This document shows, in pieces, positions 49,191 through 63,508 of a stretch of 64,000 bases of DNA. Under the pieces are notes generated by a model. That model was not told where the DNA came from. It saw nothing but the letters and a program-made list of their open reading frames with translations, and made no database searches. A program made the position numbers and the translations under genes. The stretch's first letter is position 1, and every line of letters starts with the position of its first letter. Source of the stretch: Halarcobacter bivalviorum (GTDB lineage: Bacteria > Campylobacterota > Campylobacteria > Campylobacterales > Arcobacteraceae); NCBI RefSeq assembly GCF_003346815.1, contig NZ_CP031217.1, positions 1,116,001-1,180,000 on the forward strand, read 5' to 3'.

Positions 49191-50684
49191 TTAGATAGCT
49201 CTCCATTTAGCTGGTCCAGTTGTGTGAATTGAGTTACCCTCAGTATCAACAGCAACAGTAACAGGCATATCTTTTACTTCAAATTCGTAAATAGCTTCCA
49301 TTCCCATCTCTTCAAATGCTAAGATTTTAGCACCTTTAATTGATTGAGAAATTAAATATGCTGCTCCACCAGTAGCAATAAGGTACATTGATTTATACTT
49401 TTTAATTAAATCAATAGTTGGTTGCTTTCTTTCAGCTTTACCAATCATACCCATGATACCGATTTCCATCATATCTTCAGTAAATTTATCCATTCTTGTA
49501 GAAGTTGTTGGTCCCGCAGGTCCTACTACTTCATCTCTTACTGGATCAACTGGTCCAACATAGTAGATAAATCTATCTTTTAAATCAACACCATTTGGAA
49601 GTGGTTTACCAGCATTTTTGTACTCAACGATTTTTTTGTGAGCAGCATCTCTTGCTGTTAAGATTTTTCCAGATAATAATAGAGTATCTCCAGATTTAAA
49701 CTCTTGAAGTTTCTCTTTTGTTAAATCTTCAATATTTACTTTTTTGATTGTATCCATTGGTAATTCAATATCTGGCCATAGGTCTAAATCAGGTTTATTG
49801 AATGTAGCAGCACCATTTCCATCTAATTCAAAATGGATATGTCTAGTTGCAGCACAGTTAGGAATCATCGCAACTGGTAAAGAAGCAGCGTGACATGGGT
49901 AATCTAAGATTTTAACATCAAGTACAGTTGTTAAACCACCTAAACCTTGTGCTCCAATACCAATTTTATTAATATCTTCATAAAGTTTTAATCTTAACTC
50001 TTCTAAAGCATTTTGAGGCCCTCTTTCTTTTAACTCATGGATATCAACATGCCCCATTAAAGCTTCTTTTGCAAGTAGCATTGATTTTTCTGGATTTCCA
50101 CCAATACCAATACCTAAGATACCTGGAGGACACCATCCAGCTCCCATATTTCTTACATTTTCCATAACCCAGTCATAAATAGAGTCAGATGGATTTAATA
50201 CAGCAAATTTAGATTTGTTTTCACTTCCTCCACCTTTTGCTGCAACTGTAATATCAAGTTTATCAGAGTTTGCATCTACAGAGTAGTGAATTACTGCTGG
50301 AGTATTATTTTTAGTATTTTTTCTCTCTCCTGCAGGATCAGATACAACAGAGAATCTTAATGTGTTATCTGGGTCAGTATAACCTTTAGCAACACCATCA
50401 TTTAAAATATCTTCTAAATCTCTAGAGATGTCTAGGTCAGCTTTTAAACCAACTTTGATGAAAATATTTACAGAACCAGTATCTTGACATAATGGTCTAT
50501 GTCCCATTGCACACATTTTAGAGTTAATTAAAATTTGTCCAATTGCATTTTTAGCTGATTCAGACTGCTCTTTCTCATAAGCTTCTACCATTCCTTTTAC
50601 GAAATCTTCTGGATGGTAAAAAGAGATGTATTGACAGGCATCAGCAATACTATCGATAATATCTTTTTCAGTAATTTTTCCCAT
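49191..50684 (-). CDS. Class I (4Fe-4S) fumarate hydratase
   Basis: A single-chain class I hydro-lyase of 497 residues. Alpha-part markers are RPLCQDTGSVNIF (cluster Cys66), GGGSENKSKF, GWCPPGILGIGIGGN, PVAMIPNCAATRHIHF (second cluster Cys). Beta-part markers are LLSGKILTARDAAHKK, GPTTSTRMDKF, MGMIGKAER and ATGGAAYLISQ. It hydrates fumarate to malate; many class I members also act on mesaconate (giving citramalate) or tartrate. The cluster is oxygen-labile, complementing FumC. It is monocistronic with its own terminator. Mesaconase activity would link it to the CoA-ester cassette at 55-62 kb, which is inference. Confidence 0.93.
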   Translation of the reverse strand: MGKITEKDIIDSIADACQYISFYHPEDFVKGMVEAYEKEQSESAKNAIGQILINSKMCAMGHRPLCQDTGSVNIFIKVGLKADLDISRDLEDILNDGVAKGYTDPDNTLRFSVVSDPAGERKNTKNNTPAVIHYSVDANSDKLDITVAAKGGGSENKSKFAVLNPSDSIYDWVMENVRNMGAGWCPPGILGIGIGGNPEKSMLLAKEALMGHVDIHELKERGPQNALEELRLKLYEDINKIGIGAQGLGGLTTVLDVKILDYPCHAASLPVAMIPNCAATRHIHFELDGNGAATFNKPDLDLWPDIELPMDTIKKVNIEDLTKEKLQEFKSGDTLLLSGKILTARDAAHKKIVEYKNAGKPLPNGVDLKDRFIYYVGPVDPVRDEVVGPAGPTTSTRMDKFTEDMMEIGIMGMIGKAERKQPTIDLIKKYKSMYLIATGGAAYLISQSIKGAKILAFEEMGMEAIYEFEVKDMPVTVAVDTEGNSIHTTGPAKWRAI

Positions 50685-54943: not shown

Positions 54944-54953
54944 TTTATTCTTG

Positions 54954-54959
54954 TATACT
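54954..54959 (+). promoter_or_regulatory. -10 box of the small HTH gene
   Basis: TATACT in CTTGTATACTTCCG, 33 bases before ATG 54993, directly downstream of the palindrome. Confidence 0.5.
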
Positions 54960-54992
54960 TCCGTCCCCAAAAACAGCAGAGATAGGAGAATA

Positions 54993-55301
54993 ATGAGAAT
55001 TACAATAACAAATAATGAATTTAATGCACTACAAAAAATATTAGTTCAAAATGATATGTCTTTATATAATAGAATAAATGAAGAGTTTCAAAAATCAGTT
55101 TTATCAAGAACAAGTAAAAAGATTAAAGCAACAGTAAAAGCAAATAATGCAAAAAGAAAAAAGAGTAAAAATGCAGTAGTAAATGCTGTAAATATTTTAA
55201 GATTAGAAAATAGAGATATAACTGTTTATAGTGTTGCAAAAACTGCTGAAATTAGTTATAACACTGCTAAAAAATACAAAGACTTTATACTAGCTCAATA
55301 A
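54993..55301 (+). CDS. Small basic HTH-type protein, 102 aa
   Basis: ATG 54993 has GATAGGAGA upstream; the in-frame ATG at 54951 overlaps the -10 box and is less likely. The protein is strongly basic in the middle (SRTSKKIKATVKANNAKRKK). The C-terminus DITVYSVAKTAEISYNTAKK has the spacing of a helix-turn-helix (xVAxxAxISxxTxxKY). The family is unrecognised. The 46-bp palindrome in its promoter could be its own operator. It is convergent with the DUF5718 gene. Confidence 0.75.
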   Translation: MRITITNNEFNALQKILVQNDMSLYNRINEEFQKSVLSRTSKKIKATVKANNAKRKKSKNAVVNAVNILRLENRDITVYSVAKTAEISYNTAKKYKDFILAQ

Positions 55302-55391: not shown

Positions 55392-55420
55392 ATTAGCTTC
55401 CAACAAAGTTGGAAACTAAT
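55392..55420. terminator. Hairpin between the HTH gene and DUF5718
   Basis: ATTAG-C-TTCCAAC pairs with GTTGGAA-A-CTAAT around AAA, with one C/A mismatch. Serves the convergent pair; the minus-strand tail is TTCATTTTG. Confidence 0.55.
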
Positions 55421-55431
55421 ATAAAAAAGAA

Positions 55432-56274
55432 TTACTCTACTATTTGATGCAGCTTACTACATTTTGATAGATGTAAGTCCATACCTGACATATCTTGGAT
55501 TATATCTTCAAAAGAGTGGAAGTGTGCATCATACACATAAACAAAAATTTCATCCCCTTTTTCTAAGAAGTTATGTTTTCCAAAATCTGTATATGCAGTT
55601 GCTCCAGCAGCTATTAAAAGACCTTTGTACTTACTCATGTCTTGAATAAAAGGTTTAAGCTCTTCTAATGGTCCCATATCTTCTTGAGTATTGAATTTAT
55701 CAATCATCCAATCTTTTAATTGATTAAAGAAATATGAGTATGATTTAACAGCACTAACTGTTCCATAATCTTTTAAGATACCATCTCTTCTCACAAAAGA
55801 AGCAATATGATATTTACTTAGAATACCATCTTCTTCAAAAGAATCAATCTCTATTAAATCAGAAGCTAATCCTTTTGAATTTGGACCCCAGTTCTTTTTT
55901 GTACTTAATTTATTACCATCTTGTACTCTATTTGAACAGTCATTAAATGCACCAAAAAGTTTTGGAACTATATCCACTAACTTTTCATTTTCATATACAA
56001 AATCACAAAGTAAAGCAACTTCAGCTTCAACTTGTAATTTATCCATATTATTATGGTTAATAATATCAGTACTAATTGGATATTCACCTAAAAAGCTATC
56101 ATGATTTGGAATATAAAAAGGAAAAAGTCCTTTTGGAGCATCTTTCTCTTTAGTTTCAATAACAGAAAATTCATCTGCCTCACCAGCTTCACCTAAATGG
56201 TTTGCAAAATTACCTGCAACACCAAACCCTAAATAATCTTTTAATTCTTCTAAATTTGCTTGGTTTTTATTCAT
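55432..56274 (-). CDS. DUF5718/FAH-like fold protein
   Basis: A 280-residue protein. LGFGVAGNFANHLGEAGEAD at the start, KLQVEAEVALLCDFVYEN, and NCDCSNR-like FGAFNDCSNRVQDGNK resemble fumarylacetoacetate-hydrolase-type enzymes (ExE metal motif as EAEVAL), and the whole is what I recall as DUF5718 in Campylobacterota. FAH relatives cleave or decarboxylate acylpyruvates and oxaloacetate. It is the last minus-strand gene of the CoA-ester region, 258 bases after the second lyase, with an AAAAGG ribosome site. Whether it takes part in that pathway is unknown. Confidence 0.7.
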   Translation of the reverse strand: MNKNQANLEELKDYLGFGVAGNFANHLGEAGEADEFSVIETKEKDAPKGLFPFYIPNHDSFLGEYPISTDIINHNNMDKLQVEAEVALLCDFVYENEKLVDIVPKLFGAFNDCSNRVQDGNKLSTKKNWGPNSKGLASDLIEIDSFEEDGILSKYHIASFVRRDGILKDYGTVSAVKSYSYFFNQLKDWMIDKFNTQEDMGPLEELKPFIQDMSKYKGLLIAAGATAYTDFGKHNFLEKGDEIFVYVYDAHFHSFEDIIQDMSGMDLHLSKCSKLHQIVE

Positions 56275-56334
56275 TTTTTACCTTTTGTTTAATAGTTGAC
56301 AATAAGTTTTTTATTAAGTTGGATTGATTATTTA

Positions 56335-56431
56335 AGTGAGGGTATTTGTGAAGTTTTACAGGGTAGTTATATTGTCTGATGTTCTACCTGGAAGTAAATC
56401 TTTCCTCACTGAACTTCATGAGCTTGACAAT
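56335..56431. ncRNA. Candidate structured RNA with interlocking helices
   Basis: Four complementary pairs interlock within 97 bases: AGTGAGG/CCTCACT (56335-56341 with 56404-56410), TGAAGTT/AACTTCA (56349-56355 with 56412-56418), CAGGGTAG/CTACCTG (56359-56366 with 56384-56390, one bulged G), ATTGTC/GACAAT (56371-56376 with 56426-56431). The region is richer in G+C than other spacers here. Orientation is undecided: on the minus strand it would be the 5' leader of DUF5718. It matches no riboswitch consensus I know. Confidence 0.35.
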
Positions 56432-56466
56432 GACTAATAGTTTCATCTGTTTGTCCTTTTGTTTTA

Positions 56467-56500
56467 TTTTAGATAAGAAGAATACTCCTCTTATCTAAAA
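56467..56500. other. 12-bp hairpin downstream of the second lyase gene
   Basis: TTTTAGATAAGA (56467-56478) pairs with TCTTATCTAAAA (56489-56500) around a 10-base loop, 33 bases after the lyase stop on the minus strand. No U-tract follows, so it may protect the 3' end or act as a weak terminator. Confidence 0.5.
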
Positions 56501-56532
56501 AGTTTTATAAATTTTATTTTTAAAATTAATTA

Positions 56533-57516
56533 TTAAGAGAAAAATCTTTTTTCTACTTCATCCATTAATTTTACACCAGAGTATTTAGCTCTTTGTACTA
56601 ATTCCCAGAAATATCTGTAAGTTGCTCTATCGTGTAACTCACCATCATATTGGATTGGTCCCCACTCAGCATCTTGTGCATTTAATAAAATATTTTGTGC
56701 AGCTTCTAACTCAGTAAAGTCTGGTTTCATAGCATCAACAATTGCTTGTACTTGTGTTGGGTAAATTGACCACATTCTCATAAATCCAAACTCGTTTCTT
56801 GCTCTTTCAGCATCTTTATAAGTTTGGTATGGGTTTTTAAGATCTAATGTTACGTTGTGACAAGGAATAACATGATTTTGAATAGCTGCTTGTGCTACTC
56901 TTGCTTTTGCTGCACCAATTAATCTATGATCAAATTGCCCTGGACTTCTCATGTTAGATGCAGGAATTGCACCTTGGTATCCTGATACAAAATCCATAAG
57001 ACCGAAATCTAATACTTGTAGCCATGGTAATGTAGCAATTTTCTCTACATCTTGTAATGCACCATGAGTTTCAATTAAGATATGAATTGGAATCTCTCTA
57101 CTAATACCAGCTTTTTTTGCTACTTCTTGAATATATTCAACTTGAGTTTTTACATCTTCATAAGAAGTAGATTTTGGTAATGTAATATATGCTAATTTCT
57201 CACCAGCACCTGGTACAAGAATATCAACATCTTGTCTCCAATCTGGATGAGAGAAATCGTGGATTCTAGTTCCAGCCATAGCATATGGATTTTCATCAGA
57301 ATTTACAACTCTAACGATCATTTCTGCATGCTCAACTTCTTTACCAGTCTCAGCTCCATCTTCACAATCACAAGTGATATCGAAAACAGGTCCAAGTTTT
57401 CTTTGCATTTCAAAACCTTTTTTGATTAGTTTTTCGCTTCCTGCAAAGTGCTCACAAGTAGGAATAATCGGTAAAGATTTTCCAGATTCAAATAGTGCTT
57501 CATTAGGGTGTGTCAT
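56533..57516 (-). CDS. CitE/HpcH-type CoA-ester lyase (second copy)
   Basis: A 327-residue TIM-barrel lyase of the malyl/citramalyl-CoA lyase superfamily. The start resembles the beta-proteobacterial subgroup (IIPTCEHFAGSEKLIKKGFE). DITCDCEDGAETG is the substrate/metal helix. Metal ligands are Glu149 in LIETHGALQDV and Asp175 in LDFGLMDFVSG. MRSPGQFDHRLI, RARNEFGFMRMWSIYPTQVQ and HDRATYRYFW follow. It probably cleaves or forms a 3-methylmalyl-, malyl- or citramalyl-CoA ester. A 147-base gap with a hairpin separates it from the hydratase gene, so it may be expressed differently. Confidence 0.85.
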   Translation of the reverse strand: MTHPNEALFESGKSLPIIPTCEHFAGSEKLIKKGFEMQRKLGPVFDITCDCEDGAETGKEVEHAEMIVRVVNSDENPYAMAGTRIHDFSHPDWRQDVDILVPGAGEKLAYITLPKSTSYEDVKTQVEYIQEVAKKAGISREIPIHILIETHGALQDVEKIATLPWLQVLDFGLMDFVSGYQGAIPASNMRSPGQFDHRLIGAAKARVAQAAIQNHVIPCHNVTLDLKNPYQTYKDAERARNEFGFMRMWSIYPTQVQAIVDAMKPDFTELEAAQNILLNAQDAEWGPIQYDGELHDRATYRYFWELVQRAKYSGVKLMDEVEKRFFS

Positions 57517-57635
57517 ATTATTTTCCTTTTTTATAAAATTTTAGTTCCCAAATTTAATAAAAATGGGACCTTTTATTTTTTATCTACTTTTTAACGCAAT
57601 TTATAAAAAATTGCTAAAGTAGCAAAATCCTAAAG

Positions 57636-57653
57636 AAGGCAACGAGTTGCCTT
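57636..57653 (-). terminator. Weak internal hairpin in the CoA-ester operon
   Basis: AAGGCAA/TTGCCTT (7 bp, CGAG loop) just after the hydratase stop; the minus-strand tail CTTTAGGATTTTG is only moderately U-rich. Could attenuate transcription into the second lyase gene. Confidence 0.45.
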
Positions 57654-57663
57654 TGATTCAAAA

Positions 57664-58725
57664 TTATTTTTGAGTCTTTCTTTTTGGAATGATTACTGTG
57701 TAATCTAAATCAAGTACTACATTTGGTAGATACTTACCATCTTTATCTTTTGGTGACTCAATCTCTTCTGGTCTTTGATTCTTAACAGCAATTGTTCTTA
57801 ATCTTAATAAACCTATATCATCTCTTTTATGTTCAATTACATCTAAAACTTCTGTATATGCATAGATAGTATCTCCTGCATATGTTGGATTAGCGTGTGC
57901 ACCAGAGTTAATAGCATACATCCATTGTGCATTTTGTAAACCATTAAATGAAATTGCTCTAGCCATAGAGATAACAATTCCACCATACATTAATCTCTGC
58001 CCCATAGGAGTAGATTTCATCATGTGGTCATTGAAGTGAACCTTCGCATTGTTTTGGTATAACTTAGTTGCTAAAGTATGGTCACTATTATCAACTGTAA
58101 TACCCTCTGGGTGATTTAGTCTTTCACCTTTTTCATAATCTTCAAAGAAGAAGTTTCCACCAGATGCGAAGACATCAACACATTTAATCTCAGGAATATT
58201 AATCTCTTCACAAATAGGAGTTGCTTCTGCAAAAGTAGGAACTTCTTTAATACCAGTTAAAGTCTCCTTATCTTTTTTATGAACCATAACCCATCTTTTG
58301 AAGTTAAGTACTTCTGCTCCATTTTGGTTTACACCAATAGAGTGAACATAAACAACTCCAGATTTTCCATTTGAATTCTCTTTTAATCCAATTACAGTCG
58401 AAGTCATAGAAACTGTATCTCCTATATAAACTGGATTAGGAAAAGAAATCTCTGCATAACCTAAGTTTGCAATTGCATTTAATGAAATATCTTGTACTGA
58501 TTTTCCAAATGTTAAGTGGAACATTAATACATCATCAATTGGTCTTTTTTCATATCCCATCTCAGTTGCAACAACATCAGAAGAGTGAAGTGCAAATCTA
58601 GAACCAGTGAAAGCAATGTATAAAGATACATCACCATCAGTGATTGTTCTAGGAAGAGGGTGAACTATTTTTTGTCCAATTGAAAAATCTTCAAAAAAGT
58701 TTCCCATATTAATCTTACTAGACAC
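57664..58725 (-). CDS. mch: Mesaconyl-CoA hydratase (Mch-like, MaoC double hotdog)
   Basis: Hydrates mesaconyl-CoA to 3-methylmalyl-CoA (or dehydrates it). The GTG start at 58725 has AAGGAG six bases away. The 353-residue protein has two MaoC hotdog halves. Blocks that match the Rhodobacter-type Mch include GNFFEDFSIGQKIVHPLPRT, SLNAIANLGYAEISFPNPVY, GKSGVVYVHSIGVNQNG, LATKLYQNNAKVHFNDHM, MYGGIVISMARAISFNGLQN and the Asp/His-bearing INSGAHANPTYAGDTIYAYT. It is 10 bases downstream of the ligase fusion. An itaconyl-CoA or related methyl-branched substrate cannot be excluded. Confidence 0.9.
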   Translation of the reverse strand: MSSKINMGNFFEDFSIGQKIVHPLPRTITDGDVSLYIAFTGSRFALHSSDVVATEMGYEKRPIDDVLMFHLTFGKSVQDISLNAIANLGYAEISFPNPVYIGDTVSMTSTVIGLKENSNGKSGVVYVHSIGVNQNGAEVLNFKRWVMVHKKDKETLTGIKEVPTFAEATPICEEINIPEIKCVDVFASGGNFFFEDYEKGERLNHPEGITVDNSDHTLATKLYQNNAKVHFNDHMMKSTPMGQRLMYGGIVISMARAISFNGLQNAQWMYAINSGAHANPTYAGDTIYAYTEVLDVIEHKRDDIGLLRLRTIAVKNQRPEEIESPKDKDGKYLPNVVLDLDYTVIIPKRKTQK

Positions 58726-58735
58726 TACTTTCTCC

Positions 58736-61255
58736 TTACTTGTTAAATAGGTTTTGACCTAAAGCTTTATATGTTTCATAAAGTGTAATCATTTTTTTAG
58801 CCCATTTAATTCTTGAACCATCAACAAGTTTATTGTTGTGCATAATTACTTCTTTACCATCTTTTTTAGCTTGCTCATATGAATTAATCATCTCTTCATA
58901 ATCTTCAACTTCAGCTTGTTTTGGAGTAAAGATATCATTAATATATTCAATTTGTACTGGGTGGATTAATGATTTACCATCAAATCCTAAGTTGAATGCA
59001 TCTTTAGTTGAATCTTCACAAGCAAATTCATCATGTACATCAAAGTGTGGTCCATCAATAACTGTTTTACCATATGCTTTTGCTGCTAATGCAACTTGCG
59101 ATAGGTAATTAAACATAGCTTTTGAACCTTTTTTGATATCAATATGTAATCTGTTAGCTAATTTATTTGAACCAACAACTACAACTTCAACTCTTGGACT
59201 AGCTGCACAAATCTCTTGGATATTTAATACAGATAGTGGAGTTTCAATCATAATCATTAATGATAACTCAGGGTTAATCTCATCAATTAATCTAACTGCT
59301 TCTAATACATCTTCTTTTGTATCAATTTTAGAGAATAATAAACCATCTAATTCAATCTCTCTTGCAAGCTCTAAATCTTTTTGTAAATCTTCACTTCCTA
59401 AGTTATTGATTCTTAGAACTCTTTCAGACTCTCCAAATCTACAACCTTGGTCTTTGTAAACTTCTCTAATAACTTCTCTACCAACAGCTCTTTGCTCATG
59501 TAAGATAGCTTCAAGATCGAATATAACAGTGTCCGCAAGTACAGATTTAGCTTTCTCTACATTATGTTTATTGTATGACGGTACGAATAACATAGATCTT
59601 CTAGCTTTATATTCAATTACTTCTTCACCTCTTGCATGTGCACTTTCTAGCTCATGTAGATTCTTTACAAGTTGTTTTCTTAGAACTTTTCCATTTTTAG
59701 TTCTTGGATAATCTGCCATTGCAAAAATCTTCTTTGGTGCTTTATATTTTGCAAGATTATCTTGAGAGAATTTAAGAACCTCTTCTTGTTGAGCTTCAGT
59801 TAATTCCTCATGTCCAATTACAGCAATCGCCACTAATGTTTTATCTTTAGCTAAGTCAAATCCAAATGCTACACAATCTGCTACTAAAGGATGAGTTTTT
59901 ACAACTCTTTCAACTTCGTGTGGTGATACTCTAAATCCAAATGTATTGATAATATCATCTTTTCTACCAATGAACCAGATATAACCATCTTTATCTCTTT
60001 TTGCATAATCTCCTGTAAAGAAGTATCCATCATGCTTAGCTTTAGCTGTTTCATCTTCAAGCTGCCAGTACTCTAAAAATAGACCTGGATCATCAATACC
60101 GATACAAATCATACCTTCTTCTTCAACACCAACTTCTTGTAGTGTATCAGGGTCAAGTAGTTTAACTGTGTGACCTGGTTGAACGAATCCTGCACTTCCT
60201 GGTCTAATTGGATTATTTACAGAGTGAGAAATATAGTATGAACACTCAGACATACCAATTGCTTCAAAGATATCTTGTTTAAATCTATCTCTCCATAATT
60301 CAATCATCTCAGTTGATAAATGCTCTCCCGCAGACATACAATATCTTAAAGATGGACAATCTTCAATTGTAAAATCTGTTTTTTGGATAATTTGTCTATA
60401 AATCGTTGGTACACCAATGAAAATAGTACATTTATGCTTTTTAATTAAATCAATCCAAGTTCCAGCATCATTTGAACCTTCATATGCAATAACAGTATGT
60501 CCATTAAATAATGGATCCATTAATGCAGAACCTAATACATATGTCCAGTTGAACTTACCAGAGTGCATGATTCTATCATTCTCTTTAAAGTTAAACCAAT
60601 ATTCAGTAGCAGGAGTTCTTCCAACTAATGATCTATGCGAGTGTAAAACACCCTTTGGAAAACCAGTTGTTCCAGATGTATATACTAAATATGCAGGCTC
60701 ACCAGCTTTTGAATTGTAGTGGTTAGGTGTTTTATCTGCAGTTTTTAAAATATCATTTAATGCATATACATTAATCCCTTTAGGCTTTTTTAAATCCTCA
60801 ACACTATCAGTTGCTGCAACGATAATTGTTTTTAGGTTATCTAAGTTCTCTAAATATGGAACTAAGTTTTCATACATAGAAGCAGATAAAACAATAGCAC
60901 TTGCTTGTGAATCTTCTGCTAAATATTTAACTTCTGAACCACTTAAAAGTGTTGATGTAGGAACTGCGATAATTCCTGCTTTAATAGCTCCAAAAAATGA
61001 AATAGGATAAGCTAAAGAGTTTTTTAAACAAACTAAAACTCTATCTCTTGGCCCGATTCCAATTGATGTAAGGAAGTTACAAATTTGGTCAGATTTTTCT
61101 GCTAACTCTTTATAAGTTATTTCATCAGTTCCTAATTTATCATCTTCAATAATCATTGCTGTATTATTTTCGTTTTTTCCCCCAAGGTGTGCAGATGTAC
61201 AAGCAACACCGATATTTAAAAATTCAGGTACTTCAATTTCAATAGTTGAACTCAT
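58736..61255 (-). CDS. Acyl-CoA synthetase fused to a CitE-like domain
   Basis: An 839-residue fusion. Residues 1-535 are an ANL adenylate-forming enzyme: P-loop YTSGTTGFPKG (192-202), GMSE (333-336), YFFTGDYAKRDKDGYIWFIG (411-430), and the catalytic Lys523 in YPRTKNGKV. Residues about 552-835 are a CitE/malyl-CoA-lyase-like barrel (RRSMLFVPSYNKHNVEKA to the end). The catalytic set is altered: the expected DLED is DLEA (580-583), Glu671 is kept in MIETP, but the second Mg ligand Asp is Lys698 in GSNKLANRL. It presumably activates a dicarboxylate such as mesaconate, itaconate or citramalate to its CoA ester. The barrel may be non-catalytic. Confidence 0.9.
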   Translation of the reverse strand: MSSTIEIEVPEFLNIGVACTSAHLGGKNENNTAMIIEDDKLGTDEITYKELAEKSDQICNFLTSIGIGPRDRVLVCLKNSLAYPISFFGAIKAGIIAVPTSTLLSGSEVKYLAEDSQASAIVLSASMYENLVPYLENLDNLKTIIVAATDSVEDLKKPKGINVYALNDILKTADKTPNHYNSKAGEPAYLVYTSGTTGFPKGVLHSHRSLVGRTPATEYWFNFKENDRIMHSGKFNWTYVLGSALMDPLFNGHTVIAYEGSNDAGTWIDLIKKHKCTIFIGVPTIYRQIIQKTDFTIEDCPSLRYCMSAGEHLSTEMIELWRDRFKQDIFEAIGMSECSYYISHSVNNPIRPGSAGFVQPGHTVKLLDPDTLQEVGVEEEGMICIGIDDPGLFLEYWQLEDETAKAKHDGYFFTGDYAKRDKDGYIWFIGRKDDIINTFGFRVSPHEVERVVKTHPLVADCVAFGFDLAKDKTLVAIAVIGHEELTEAQQEEVLKFSQDNLAKYKAPKKIFAMADYPRTKNGKVLRKQLVKNLHELESAHARGEEVIEYKARRSMLFVPSYNKHNVEKAKSVLADTVIFDLEAILHEQRAVGREVIREVYKDQGCRFGESERVLRINNLGSEDLQKDLELAREIELDGLLFSKIDTKEDVLEAVRLIDEINPELSLMIMIETPLSVLNIQEICAASPRVEVVVVGSNKLANRLHIDIKKGSKAMFNYLSQVALAAKAYGKTVIDGPHFDVHDEFACEDSTKDAFNLGFDGKSLIHPVQIEYINDIFTPKQAEVEDYEEMINSYEQAKKDGKEVIMHNNKLVDGSRIKWAKKMITLYETYKALGQNLFNK

Positions 61256-61272
61256 GTTATTTAACTCCCTTC

Positions 61273-62406
61273 TTAAATTAGACCGTAAGGCCAGTTTTCT
61301 TTAAATGTATGTAAAGGCATTCTATTTAATACATTTATTGCAAATGCTTCATCTTTTTTAGAAAGACTATTTAAAGCATAAGCTCTTAACAGGTTCTGTA
61401 AAGATTTACCAAACATTGGTGGATCTAACATTTCACCCTCATATCTAATAGCACCAGATAATAGTGCATCAGCTTCAATAGCAGCTTGTAGTATAGATAC
61501 ATCTTTTGCAATCTCATTTGGAGATGGAGTAAATGCAACTTTACAAACATTAATATGGTTTGGAGTAATAACTTGTTTTCCAGTTAATCCCATAGCACAC
61601 TCTCTTTGAGCATGAGAATAAACATGTCTTGAAGCTTCATCTCCATGTAAGTCTAACCATCTTCTAATATCTTTTTTCTCAACACAAGAATCTGGTAATG
61701 AGTTTGGTGTTAATAATACTTCAACTCCACCAATTACACCTTTTCCTTTAACTCTTGCTTCCATTGTAAGCATATTAAAGAAAGTCTCTAACTCATCAAT
61801 CCATCCCTCAGGAGTAATTTTATAAGCCATTGCTTTAGAGAAATCGTGAATACCAAATACTACGTGTTTAACTGTAGAGTGACTCATCAATTTATCTGCT
61901 ATTTGTAAAGATTTTGGGTGCTCAATAATTGGTTGAATTTGTAAATTTGCACCAATTGAAACTAACCATGAAGATAAGTCTCTAATCTCTGCATCTCCAT
62001 ATACTTCACCAGCTTTTGCTAATACAATTGCATCAATATATTTGTGCACTTGTTTTAACATTTTTAAATCCTCTTCATACTCTTCAGTTCTAAAAGGATT
62101 AATTCTAATAGCTATTTGGAAATCTCTTTCTGGAAATTTTGGTAATTCTTCAATTAAAAGTTTTCTAGACATAGCTTTTTGTCTACAACCATCTTCCAGG
62201 TCAAATAAAACAGTGTGAGCTTTTGTTTTATAAGCATGCTTTTGTAATCTAAGCTTAGCTTGCTCCATTGTTTCATAACTTCCATCTAATGGATTGTATT
62301 TAATTGGCGGATAATATATTTGAATTCCTGGCCAGTGTCCACCTAACACAGGAGTTAAATCATCATTTGCTGTTAGTTTTGATAAATCTATAACTGATGC
62401 AGTCAT
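61273..62406 (-). CDS. CitE/HpcH-type CoA-ester lyase (first copy)
   Basis: A 377-residue lyase, about 50 residues longer than CitE. After an N-terminal extension with GGHWPGIQIYYPP, the barrel has TVLFDLEDGCRQKAMSRKLL (DLED at 69-72), QIAIRINPFRTEEYEEDL with the CoA/substrate Arg, Glu162 in PIIEHPKSL, and Asp188 in VVFGIHDFSKAM. VIGGVEVLLTPNS, GLTGKQVITPNH and GEMLDPPMF follow. Metal ligands are intact, so it should be active, probably on a malyl-, methylmalyl- or citramalyl-CoA. It is first in the operon, 17 bases before the ligase fusion, with GAGGT upstream and the IclR gene opposite. Confidence 0.85.
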   Translation of the reverse strand: MTASVIDLSKLTANDDLTPVLGGHWPGIQIYYPPIKYNPLDGSYETMEQAKLRLQKHAYKTKAHTVLFDLEDGCRQKAMSRKLLIEELPKFPERDFQIAIRINPFRTEEYEEDLKMLKQVHKYIDAIVLAKAGEVYGDAEIRDLSSWLVSIGANLQIQPIIEHPKSLQIADKLMSHSTVKHVVFGIHDFSKAMAYKITPEGWIDELETFFNMLTMEARVKGKGVIGGVEVLLTPNSLPDSCVEKKDIRRWLDLHGDEASRHVYSHAQRECAMGLTGKQVITPNHINVCKVAFTPSPNEIAKDVSILQAAIEADALLSGAIRYEGEMLDPPMFGKSLQNLLRAYALNSLSKKDEAFAINVLNRMPLHTFKENWPYGLI

Positions 62407-62773
62407 GATAGTTACCTCTTTTTTTTTATTTTATTGAAGAATTTTTCAATAATTTTTCAGACTATTTATTCTTCTGACACTGAAATTAATCCATAGATTA
62501 CATAAGTGAAACCAAAATTTAAAAACTAATAAAAATAATTAAGCTTTTTTAAATAATTTATGTAGATACCGTAAAAAGGGGATTGTAGAATATGCTCAAA
62601 AAAAAGTTGCATATAATGAGAAAATTTAAAAAAGTTGTCACAGATAGTAAAATATTTTTTTTGAAATTTGTTAAAGATATTGTAACGAAAATATATATTT
62701 AGTAACATTTTCTCTATTTTTAAATACAAAGATGCTAATATTATGACCTTAATAGATATGAGTAGGAGTGAAA
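62407..62773. promoter_or_regulatory. Divergent promoter region, lyase operon / iclR
   Basis: A 367-base A/T-rich spacer with no credible gene. It contains an 8-bp inverted repeat TTATTGAA (62432-62439) / TTCAATAA (62446-62453), 26-47 bases before the lyase ATG, a possible IclR site. TATAAT (62612-62617) and TATTAT (62739-62744) on the plus strand are possible -10 boxes for iclR. A minus-strand open frame at 62526-62729 is low-complexity and not believed. Confidence 0.55.
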
Positions 62774-63508
62774 TTGGTTCAGAACAATCGAAATAAATCT
62801 TTGTCTCGAGGACTTAGAATTTTAAAAGAGATTATGATTGCCAATAAACCTTTAACTGCAAATACATTATGTCAAAAACTTTTAGTTGATAAAAGTACAA
62901 TGTCTAGACTTATTACAACGCTAATTGATGAAGAATTTATAGAGTACAAAGAAAATAGTAAAGAGATTATATTAAGTGACTTTATGAAAAATATCCTTGA
63001 AGATGAAGATAGGGATAGAATTGTTGAAAAAACAAAAGCTATATTAGAAGAGATACATGAAGTTTCAAATGAATGTGCATATGTAGGAGTATTAGAAGAG
63101 GGAGCTGTTTTATATTTAAATCAAATTGATTACTCAAATAGAGTTTTAAAGACAAGAAACTCTGTTGGTTTAAAAACACCTCTTCATACAAATGGGTTTG
63201 GTAAAATTTTATTAGCTTTTTCTGATGTAGAATTAAAAAATCTAAAATTAAAAAAACATACAAGTAATACAATTACTTCAACTGCAAAACTTGAAAAAGA
63301 GTTAGAGCTTATTCAAGAACGAGGTTATGCTATTGGAAATGAAGAGCATGAGTTTGGATTAAGGTCAGTTGCAGTTCCATATTTTAATCAAAAAAACAAG
63401 CTTATTGCTACGATAGGTATTTCGGGACTTTCAGTTAGATTAGATATTGAAAAGTTACATAAACTGGGGCAAGAGATATTTATGATTGTAAATAAACATA
63501 ATATCTAA
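62774..63508 (+). CDS. IclR-family transcriptional regulator
   Basis: A 244-residue regulator. TTG 62774 has AGGAG five bases upstream; the GTG at 62768 overlaps that site and is rejected. The winged helix (about 7-65) has SRGLRILKEIMIANKPLTAN and DKSTMSRLITTLIDEEFIEY. The effector-binding IclR domain (about 75-240) has AYVGVLEEGAVLYLNQID, LHTNGFGKILLAFS, YAIGNEEHEFGLRSVAVPYF and IGISGLSVR. It is divergent from the lyase operon, so it very probably controls that operon in response to a pathway acid such as mesaconate or glyoxylate; effector inferred. Confidence 0.92.
   Translation: MVQNNRNKSLSRGLRILKEIMIANKPLTANTLCQKLLVDKSTMSRLITTLIDEEFIEYKENSKEIILSDFMKNILEDEDRDRIVEKTKAILEEIHEVSNECAYVGVLEEGAVLYLNQIDYSNRVLKTRNSVGLKTPLHTNGFGKILLAFSDVELKNLKLKKHTSNTITSTAKLEKELELIQERGYAIGNEEHEFGLRSVAVPYFNQKNKLIATIGISGLSVRLDIEKLHKLGQEIFMIVNKHNI

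Follow-up and report, generated by a model that had tools for sequence, protein, structure and literature searches.

A conserved ligase-CitE operon of Halarcobacter bivalviorum and a possible citramalate route to glyoxylate in bacteria lacking isocitrate lyase

Introduction

What does a conserved operon for mesaconyl-CoA chemistry do in bacteria that lack isocitrate lyase? We addressed this question for Halarcobacter bivalviorum, in which a stretch of 64,000 nt (NZ_CP031217.1, 1116001-1180000; hereafter the window) of the single-contig 2.68 Mb genome carries genes for two CitE-type proteins (lyase A and lyase B), a fusion of an acyl-CoA ligase with a further CitE-like domain, and mesaconyl-CoA hydratase (Mch). 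Growth on acetate or fatty acids requires C4 acids to be made from acetyl-CoA, and few pathways for this are known. We tentatively propose, at close to an even chance, that the operon forms the glyoxylate- and propionyl-CoA-producing arm of a citramalate route that is closed by the methylcitrate cycle and replaces isocitrate lyase in acetyl-CoA assimilation. If true, this would provide genes for the long-proposed citramalate cycle and explain acetyl-CoA assimilation in the groups concerned: marine sediments harbour abundant acetate-using Arcobacteraceae, and the gap left by the missing shunt in Kangiella would be filled. An old hypothesis without genes would also become directly testable by knock-out and enzyme assay.

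A cluster of this kind has been noticed before. The passage on ab1917-ab1921 in the 2007 Arcobacter butzleri genome paper lists CitE, an acetyl-CoA-synthetase/CitE fusion, enoyl-CoA hydratase, CitE and class I fumarase, by description the same cluster, and proposes that glyoxylate and propionyl-CoA are interconverted with pyruvate and acetyl-CoA, in a scheme that the authors compare with the 3-hydroxypropionate cycle and the citramalate cycle (PMC2147049). The initial annotation of the window knew of no characterised pathway of this make-up in the phylum; a pathway had in fact been proposed, but we found no biochemical characterisation of such a cluster in the literature. The 2007 passage differs from the present proposal in running the reactions in the reverse direction, and it contains no cross-phylum comparison, active-site analysis or link to a missing isocitrate lyase. 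New here are the spread across phyla, the conservation of gene order, the co-occurrence with prpB, the missing isocitrate lyase and the active-site analysis. For Rhodospirillum rubrum a similar citramalate cycle has been proposed, leading from acetyl-CoA and pyruvate via citramalate, mesaconate, mesaconyl-CoA and methylmalyl-CoA to glyoxylate and propionyl-CoA (reviewed in PMC8307300). In the section of that paper on the cycle, propionyl-CoA is processed via succinyl-CoA rather than by the methylcitrate cycle proposed here, and no gene cluster is assigned and doubts remain, whereas a conserved operon is offered here.

Results

Enzymes encoded by the operon

Families were assigned by Pfam, NCBIfam and PDB searches. 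The six genes that the initial annotation had placed in the cassette are all intact open frames at their predicted positions (Table 1), and four of them, encoding lyase A, the fusion, Mch and lyase B, look like a single operon because the gaps between them are short (17, 10 and 147 bp, respectively). Mch matches PF19315 (1.9e-23; 83.6 bits compared to a cut-off of 26.5) and aligns over its full length with the PDB entries 4e3e from Chloroflexus (7.6e-113, 380 bits, 349 residues) and 8hgn (1.3e-102), so that by homology the gene product is a true member of the mesaconyl-CoA hydratase family. The chemistry envisaged from the start, with Mch and a methylmalyl-CoA-type lyase acting between mesaconyl-CoA and propionyl-CoA plus glyoxylate, is thus supported by homology.

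Lyase B matches 3qqw (6.3e-141) and shares about 60% identity with Cupriavidus forms; it is probably a beta-methylmalyl-CoA lyase. Relatives of Mch (48-49% identity) and lyase B (59-61%) are encoded side by side in Cupriavidus and Sphingobium, but there a CoA-transferase gene lies nearby in place of the ligase-CitE fusion, and lyase A was not found in those loci. Lyase A itself is recognized by PF03328 (2.4e-8), with weak matches to the citE and RipC models and PDB matches to 5ugr and CLYBL. It is probably a C-C lyase of the CitE superfamily acting on citramalyl-CoA or malyl-CoA; its predicted structure is poor (predicted local distance difference test, pLDDT, of 63). The conserved residues of this superfamily are Glu44/Asp45, Arg76, the Mg ligands Glu141/Asp168 and Asp299 (Rhodobacter sphaeroides numbering), and replacement of Asp299 by Glu has been reported solely for the malyl-CoA thioesterase clade (PMC3832036). 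All 80 sequences of lyase A and all 73 of lyase B retain every listed catalytic residue. Mean identities of 87% and 84%, respectively, indicate core-like conservation.

A class I fumarase, which was absent from the initial annotation, is encoded 6 kb from the cassette in the window. In many relatives its gene directly follows that of lyase B or stands one gene further, and it is present in 20 of the 37 Campylobacterota loci with lyase B. Mesaconate is accepted by class I fumarases (PMC4682846).

Distribution and gene order

Mch is found in 78 of 104 Arcobacteraceae genomes, including 69 of the 88 good ones. The fusion occurs in 38 of 397 genomes sampled across the phylum, 34 from Arcobacteraceae and four from a second family, Sulfurospirillaceae as judged from the named loci. 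Conservation of gene order in Arcobacteraceae had been suggested as a check of the cassette, and the order lyase A-fusion-Mch-lyase B is indeed unbroken in all 20 loci read from the two families. A scan of named genomes with lyase A as the query gave 260 relatives, of which the best 80 were kept. These best 80 loci come from three phyla, and nearly all contain the other cassette genes, save loci truncated at the end of a contig; among their sources are Kangiella, Aliikangiella, Pleionea, Thalassotalea, gammaproteobacterial metagenome-assembled genomes (MAGs) and a Thermodesulfovibrionales MAG. Given the unbroken order and the joint occurrence in three phyla, the cassette is more than a chance assembly.

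The ligase and the CitE domain are fused in Campylobacterota, in a few gammaproteobacterial MAGs and in the Thermodesulfovibrionales MAG. In the Kangiella-Pleionea-Thalassotalea group each has a gene of its own, the two lying next to each other; the gene order is retained there, with the lyase B gene transcribed divergently. Fused in some genomes and adjacent in others, ligase and CitE are linked in the Rosetta-stone manner.

Glyoxylate shunt and methylcitrate cycle

Profile searches covered the whole H. bivalviorum genome, and tblastn searches with reference proteins covered 85% of it (800-1116 kb and 1180-1259 kb lay outside). No true isocitrate lyase was found with the Pfam ICL profile in this genome and 103 relatives. 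The only matches are partial (40-66 bits) and lie in frames of 263-370 residues; these features, together with the equivalog score of the H. bivalviorum gene (see below), identify them as PrpB. The ordinary glyoxylate shunt is ruled out by this absence. Malate synthase is likewise missing from the H. bivalviorum genome and was found in 14 of the 104 Arcobacteraceae genomes.

The same pattern holds outside the family. Among 40 cassette genomes from other groups none has isocitrate lyase (38 contain PrpB-type matches alone, two have no match), and malate synthase is missing from 35 and present in five. As a control, we compared 238 genomes of the order of Thalassotalea, calling a true isocitrate lyase from at least two pieces and a best E-value of at most 1e-18. 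Among the matches listed, the enzyme is present in 0/22 genomes with lyase A vs about 131/216 without (Fisher 6e-9, with genomes treated as independent). This agrees with the Kangiella genome paper, in which both shunt enzymes are absent, gluconeogenesis is called inert and beta-oxidation genes are present (PMC6000758).

The cassette is accompanied by methylcitrate cycle genes. prpB is present in all 38 fusion genomes vs 77 of the 359 others in the phylum (Fisher 2e-23, related genomes being treated as independent), and within Arcobacteraceae a PrpB-type match is seen in about 76 of 78 genomes with Mch vs 6 of 26 without. In H. bivalviorum prpB, prpC, acnD and prpF stand in a row at 282.6-288.7 kb. 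PrpB, AcnD and PrpF exceed their curated cut-offs (434 vs 354, 1531 vs 1420 and 616 vs 441 bits), while PrpC is just under its own (415 vs 421). In the Thermodesulfovibrionales MAG (locus L232) two genes for PYC_OADA-domain carboxylases, one of them with a biotin domain, stand ahead of the operon, and after it come prpE, a gene resembling that of a fumarase alpha subunit, a frame in which prpB and prpC are fused, and prpD. The fused frame (L232:12084-14090) is 668 residues long and joins PrpB (methylisocitrate lyase) to PrpC (methylcitrate synthase). At another locus (L222) the IclR gene has prpC-prpB-prpE some 5 kb upstream of it, and at L231 a gap of 21 bp separates the lyase A gene from an upstream gene for malic enzyme.

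The CitE domain fused to the ligase

Residues ~1-539 of the fusion correspond to an AMP-forming acyl-CoA ligase (AMP-binding, 6.6e-75) with intact ligase motifs, and residues ~540-839 to the CitE-like domain (HpcH_HpaI, 5.5e-33). The model of the latter (pLDDT 86) shows the CitE fold, with human CLYBL (Foldseek 3.2e-21) and Rhodobacter malyl-CoA lyase as best structural matches, and its closest profile models are citE and RipC (147 and 112 bits).

It is noteworthy that the active site of the fused domain is degenerate. In 44/44 fused forms the equivalent of the metal ligand Asp168 is replaced by Lys, Asn, Thr, Ser, Arg or Gln, and the Glu44/Asp45 (LED) motif is degraded, while Arg76 (41/44), Glu141 (40/44) and Asp299 (44/44) are largely or fully kept. 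The loss of metal ligand and LED motif makes the domain doubtful as a lyase; judged from these residues, it is probably not an ordinary lyase and may be a former one repurposed for hydrolysis or binding. The idea of three active lyases for three reactions was therefore dropped for the fused forms. The unfused third CitE protein of Gammaproteobacteria, in contrast, retains Asp168 in 34/35 sequences, has Gln-Glu in place of Glu44-Asp45, and carries the thioesterase-type Glu at position 299 in 35/35, where the fused domain of the window has Asp. This Glu would fit synthesis over cleavage.

The fused domain also changes faster than its neighbours in the cassette: mean identity between Campylobacterota and the Kangiella group is 39% for this domain, compared to 66% for lyase A, 59% for the ligase and 65% for lyase B. 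The lyase A and ligase trees agree in placing fused and unfused forms in separate groups. Within several Arcobacteraceae loci (L061, L202, L059, L062, L069 and L223) identity to the window is no more than 63-68% for the fusion, while lyase A shares 84-88% and lyase B 80-94% identity, and in the ligase tree L202, L216 and L223 fall outside the main group of this family. An exchange of the fusion within the operon may have taken place in some of these bacteria.

Proposed pathway and alternative explanations

Of the readings considered, the proposed route accounts for the largest part of the observations, among them the conserved gene order, the company of prpB and the lack of isocitrate lyase. 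The step activities of the proposed route are predicted from homology, and from these data we infer its substrates, its direction and the assignment of lyases to steps. A CitE-type lyase, perhaps lyase A, would condense acetyl-CoA with pyruvate to citramalyl-CoA, and hydrolysis of the thioester would release citramalate. Dehydration by class I fumarase would give mesaconate, which the ligase would convert with ATP to mesaconyl-CoA; Mch would hydrate this to beta-methylmalyl-CoA, and lyase B would split the product into propionyl-CoA and glyoxylate. The methylcitrate cycle (PrpC, AcnD/PrpF, PrpB) would turn propionyl-CoA and oxaloacetate into succinate and pyruvate, by which pyruvate is regained, and lyase A or B with a thioesterase would form malate from glyoxylate and acetyl-CoA, replacing malate synthase. 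In sum, the yield would equal that of the glyoxylate shunt, two acetyl-CoA giving one succinate, with one ATP spent to AMP. Homologues exist for the condensation, dehydration, activation, hydration and cleavage steps of a citramalate cycle, although no specific condensing lyase is singled out. A small stoichiometric model is feasible with exactly this yield and cost and breaks down when any of PrpB, PrpC, Mch, lyase B, fumarase and ligase is removed, which is a book-keeping test and not biology. The wider proposal, that a citramalate-methylcitrate cycle with its own operon has spread horizontally through Campylobacterota, Gammaproteobacteria and Nitrospirota and that its ligase-fused CitE domain is no longer a lyase, we also regard as tentative and rather below an even chance.

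With regard to acetate, Arcobacter phylotypes whose genomes are not known have been found to grow on and become labelled from 13C-acetate (PMC6175234), and acetate led to a bloom of Arcobacteraceae, again of cells with genomes not known (PMC11252027). The H. bivalviorum genome encodes two tandem homologues of the E. coli acetate/glycolate permease ActP (586522-590443; 62% and 65% identity).

Several points weigh against the proposed route. A. butzleri carries the cluster and, in the part of the genome paper concerned, is reported without growth on acetate, propionate or both (PMC2147049). H. bivalviorum has a homologue of pyruvate:flavodoxin/ferredoxin oxidoreductase (47% identity to E. coli YdbK) and PckA, and therefore an alternative route from acetyl-CoA to pyruvate is possible. 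No acetyl-CoA synthetase was found by tblastn of references in the searched 85% of its genome. The ligase spends ATP, unlike the normal shunt, and its fusion to a relative of citramalyl-CoA lyase more naturally suggests that citramalate is activated and split. A thioesterase was not identified in the Campylobacterota copies, and the fused domain encoded in the window has neither the thioesterase Glu nor the metal ligand. Finally, the co-occurrence statistics ignore shared ancestry, and the direction of the pathway is not readable from the genes.

The same enzymes could run in reverse, as proposed for ab1917-ab1921 in the corresponding passage of PMC2147049 and resembling the second half of the 3-hydroxypropionate bi-cycle. 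Lyase B would then condense propionyl-CoA with glyoxylate, Mch would dehydrate the product and mesaconate would be freed; class I fumarase would convert it to citramalate, which the ligase would activate for cleavage to acetyl-CoA and pyruvate. This is the better fit to the ligase-CitE fusion, provided that the fused domain is active, and the proximity of that domain to the citE and RipC models and CLYBL is as expected if a citramalate ligase supplied a citramalyl-CoA lyase with its substrate. The loss of the metal ligand and of the LED motif speaks against such activity, however, and a glyoxylate source would be required in cells without isocitrate lyase. The methylcitrate cycle would be unneeded although prpB always accompanies the fusion, and the thioesterase-like residue of the unfused form would be futile. 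We consider the reverse direction unlikely. The glyoxylate-assimilating half of the Chloroflexus bi-cycle is alike in Mch and in the use of CitE-superfamily lyases, but the operon has an AMP-forming ligase instead of a mesaconyl-CoA C1-C4 CoA-transferase, and lyase B falls into a different CitE subgroup (3qqw).

Breakdown of a C5 diacid (mesaconate, citramalate or beta-methylmalate), close to the initial suggestion that an external C5 diacid is activated, appears similarly improbable. Following activation by the ligase, Mch and lyase B would produce propionyl-CoA and glyoxylate, to be absorbed by the methylcitrate cycle and a malyl-CoA lyase, which would account for the requirement for prp genes. 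Proteobacterial groups of CoA-transferase, Mch and lyase B genes do lie near a tripartite tricarboxylate transporter (TTT) gene and other catabolic genes (Cupriavidus, L035), and in Variovorax (L039) a lyase B relative with 54% identity is accompanied by CoA-transferase, IclR and transporter genes. The Campylobacterota operon, on the other hand, contains no transporter gene; the genes are near-universal in Arcobacteraceae, with a core-like conservation unusual for a peripheral catabolic cluster, and track the methylcitrate cycle, and this reading offers no explanation for the lack of isocitrate lyase. Itaconate breakdown by RipABC or Ict-Ich-Ccl, which had been offered as an option, was rejected, as the curated cut-offs are not reached (RipB 118 vs 340 bits, RipC 39-112 vs 375 bits) and the operon has no CoA-transferase.

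Mesaconate might also arise from glutamate via glutamate mutase in a bacterial methylaspartate cycle, as in haloarchaea, where mesaconyl-CoA likewise gives propionyl-CoA and glyoxylate. H. bivalviorum has GlmS (158 bits vs a cut-off of 110), GlmE (TIGR01503, 379 bits, just below 390) and a GlmL-like protein, and a GlmE match is present in 60 of 104 Arcobacteraceae genomes. However, methylaspartate ammonia-lyase is absent from the whole genome (best PF07476 match 11.4 bits, cut-off 27), on which ground we rejected this cycle as highly improbable. Glutamate mutase and the cassette do not co-vary either, several genomes having Glm without Mch or Mch without Glm. Compared to the haloarchaeal system, Mch and the lyases score under the haloarchaeal model cut-offs, and a ligase is found rather than a CoA-transferase. 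The GlmS, GlmE and GlmL-like genes (1459268-1463817; L120:268-4817) are followed by an AMP-ligase gene and lie a few kb from TonB-receptor and ABC genes resembling those for B12 or siderophore uptake. With respect to the ethylmalonyl-CoA pathway, tblastn over 85% of the genome gave no ScpA-like B12-dependent acyl-CoA mutase.

Neighbouring genes

The features of the locus are compiled in Table 1.

Table 1. Features of the H. bivalviorum locus; positions refer to the window.
Feature	Position	Strand	Length	Remarks
Lyase A, CitE-fold	61273-62406	minus	377 aa	first operon gene
Ligase-CitE fusion	58736-61255	minus	839 aa	AMP-binding + HpcH/HpaI (CitE)
CitE-like domain of fusion	58736-59638	minus		LED motif and metal-binding Asp lost
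Mch, mesaconyl-CoA (2-methylfumaryl-CoA) hydratase	57664-58725	minus	353 aa	GTG start
Lyase B	56533-57516	minus	327 aa	PDB 3qqw/3r4i family
DUF5718 protein	55432-56274	minus	280 aa	PF18985
IclR-family regulator	62768-63508	plus	246 aa	divergent from operon
Class I fumarase, candidate mesaconase (mesaconate/citramalate)	49191-50684	minus		PF05681/PF05683
Terminator-like stem-loop 3' of DUF5718	55392-55420	minus		consensus scan, count not above shuffles

The gene downstream of lyase B, at a distance of 258 bp, had been labelled FAH-like. Its product has no FAA_hydrolase Pfam match and no meaningful PDB sequence match, and is assigned to DUF5718 alone (6.7e-96). A consensus scan found no stem-loop terminator between the two genes. 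DUF5718 is a neighbour in 16 of the 20 loci and conserved in Arcobacteraceae; it was not seen beside the Sulfurospirillaceae and gammaproteobacterial copies (loci L220-L222, L224-L232 and L235-L269).

The IclR gene, separated by 361 bp from that of lyase A, is present in 14 of the 20 loci. The regulator matches PF01614 (4.4e-35), and its nearest NCBIfam model is BhcR (NF045644; 133 bits, below the cut-off of 350). No common dyad that could serve as a shared IclR operator was found in the IclR-lyase A gap among 17 loci. Elsewhere in the genome (1574505-1575212) lies the gene for another regulator of the IclR family, which shares 48% identity with the first. The window also contains a 116-residue frame (54951-55301) without a Pfam or NCBIfam match, which is 76-83% conserved in several related loci.

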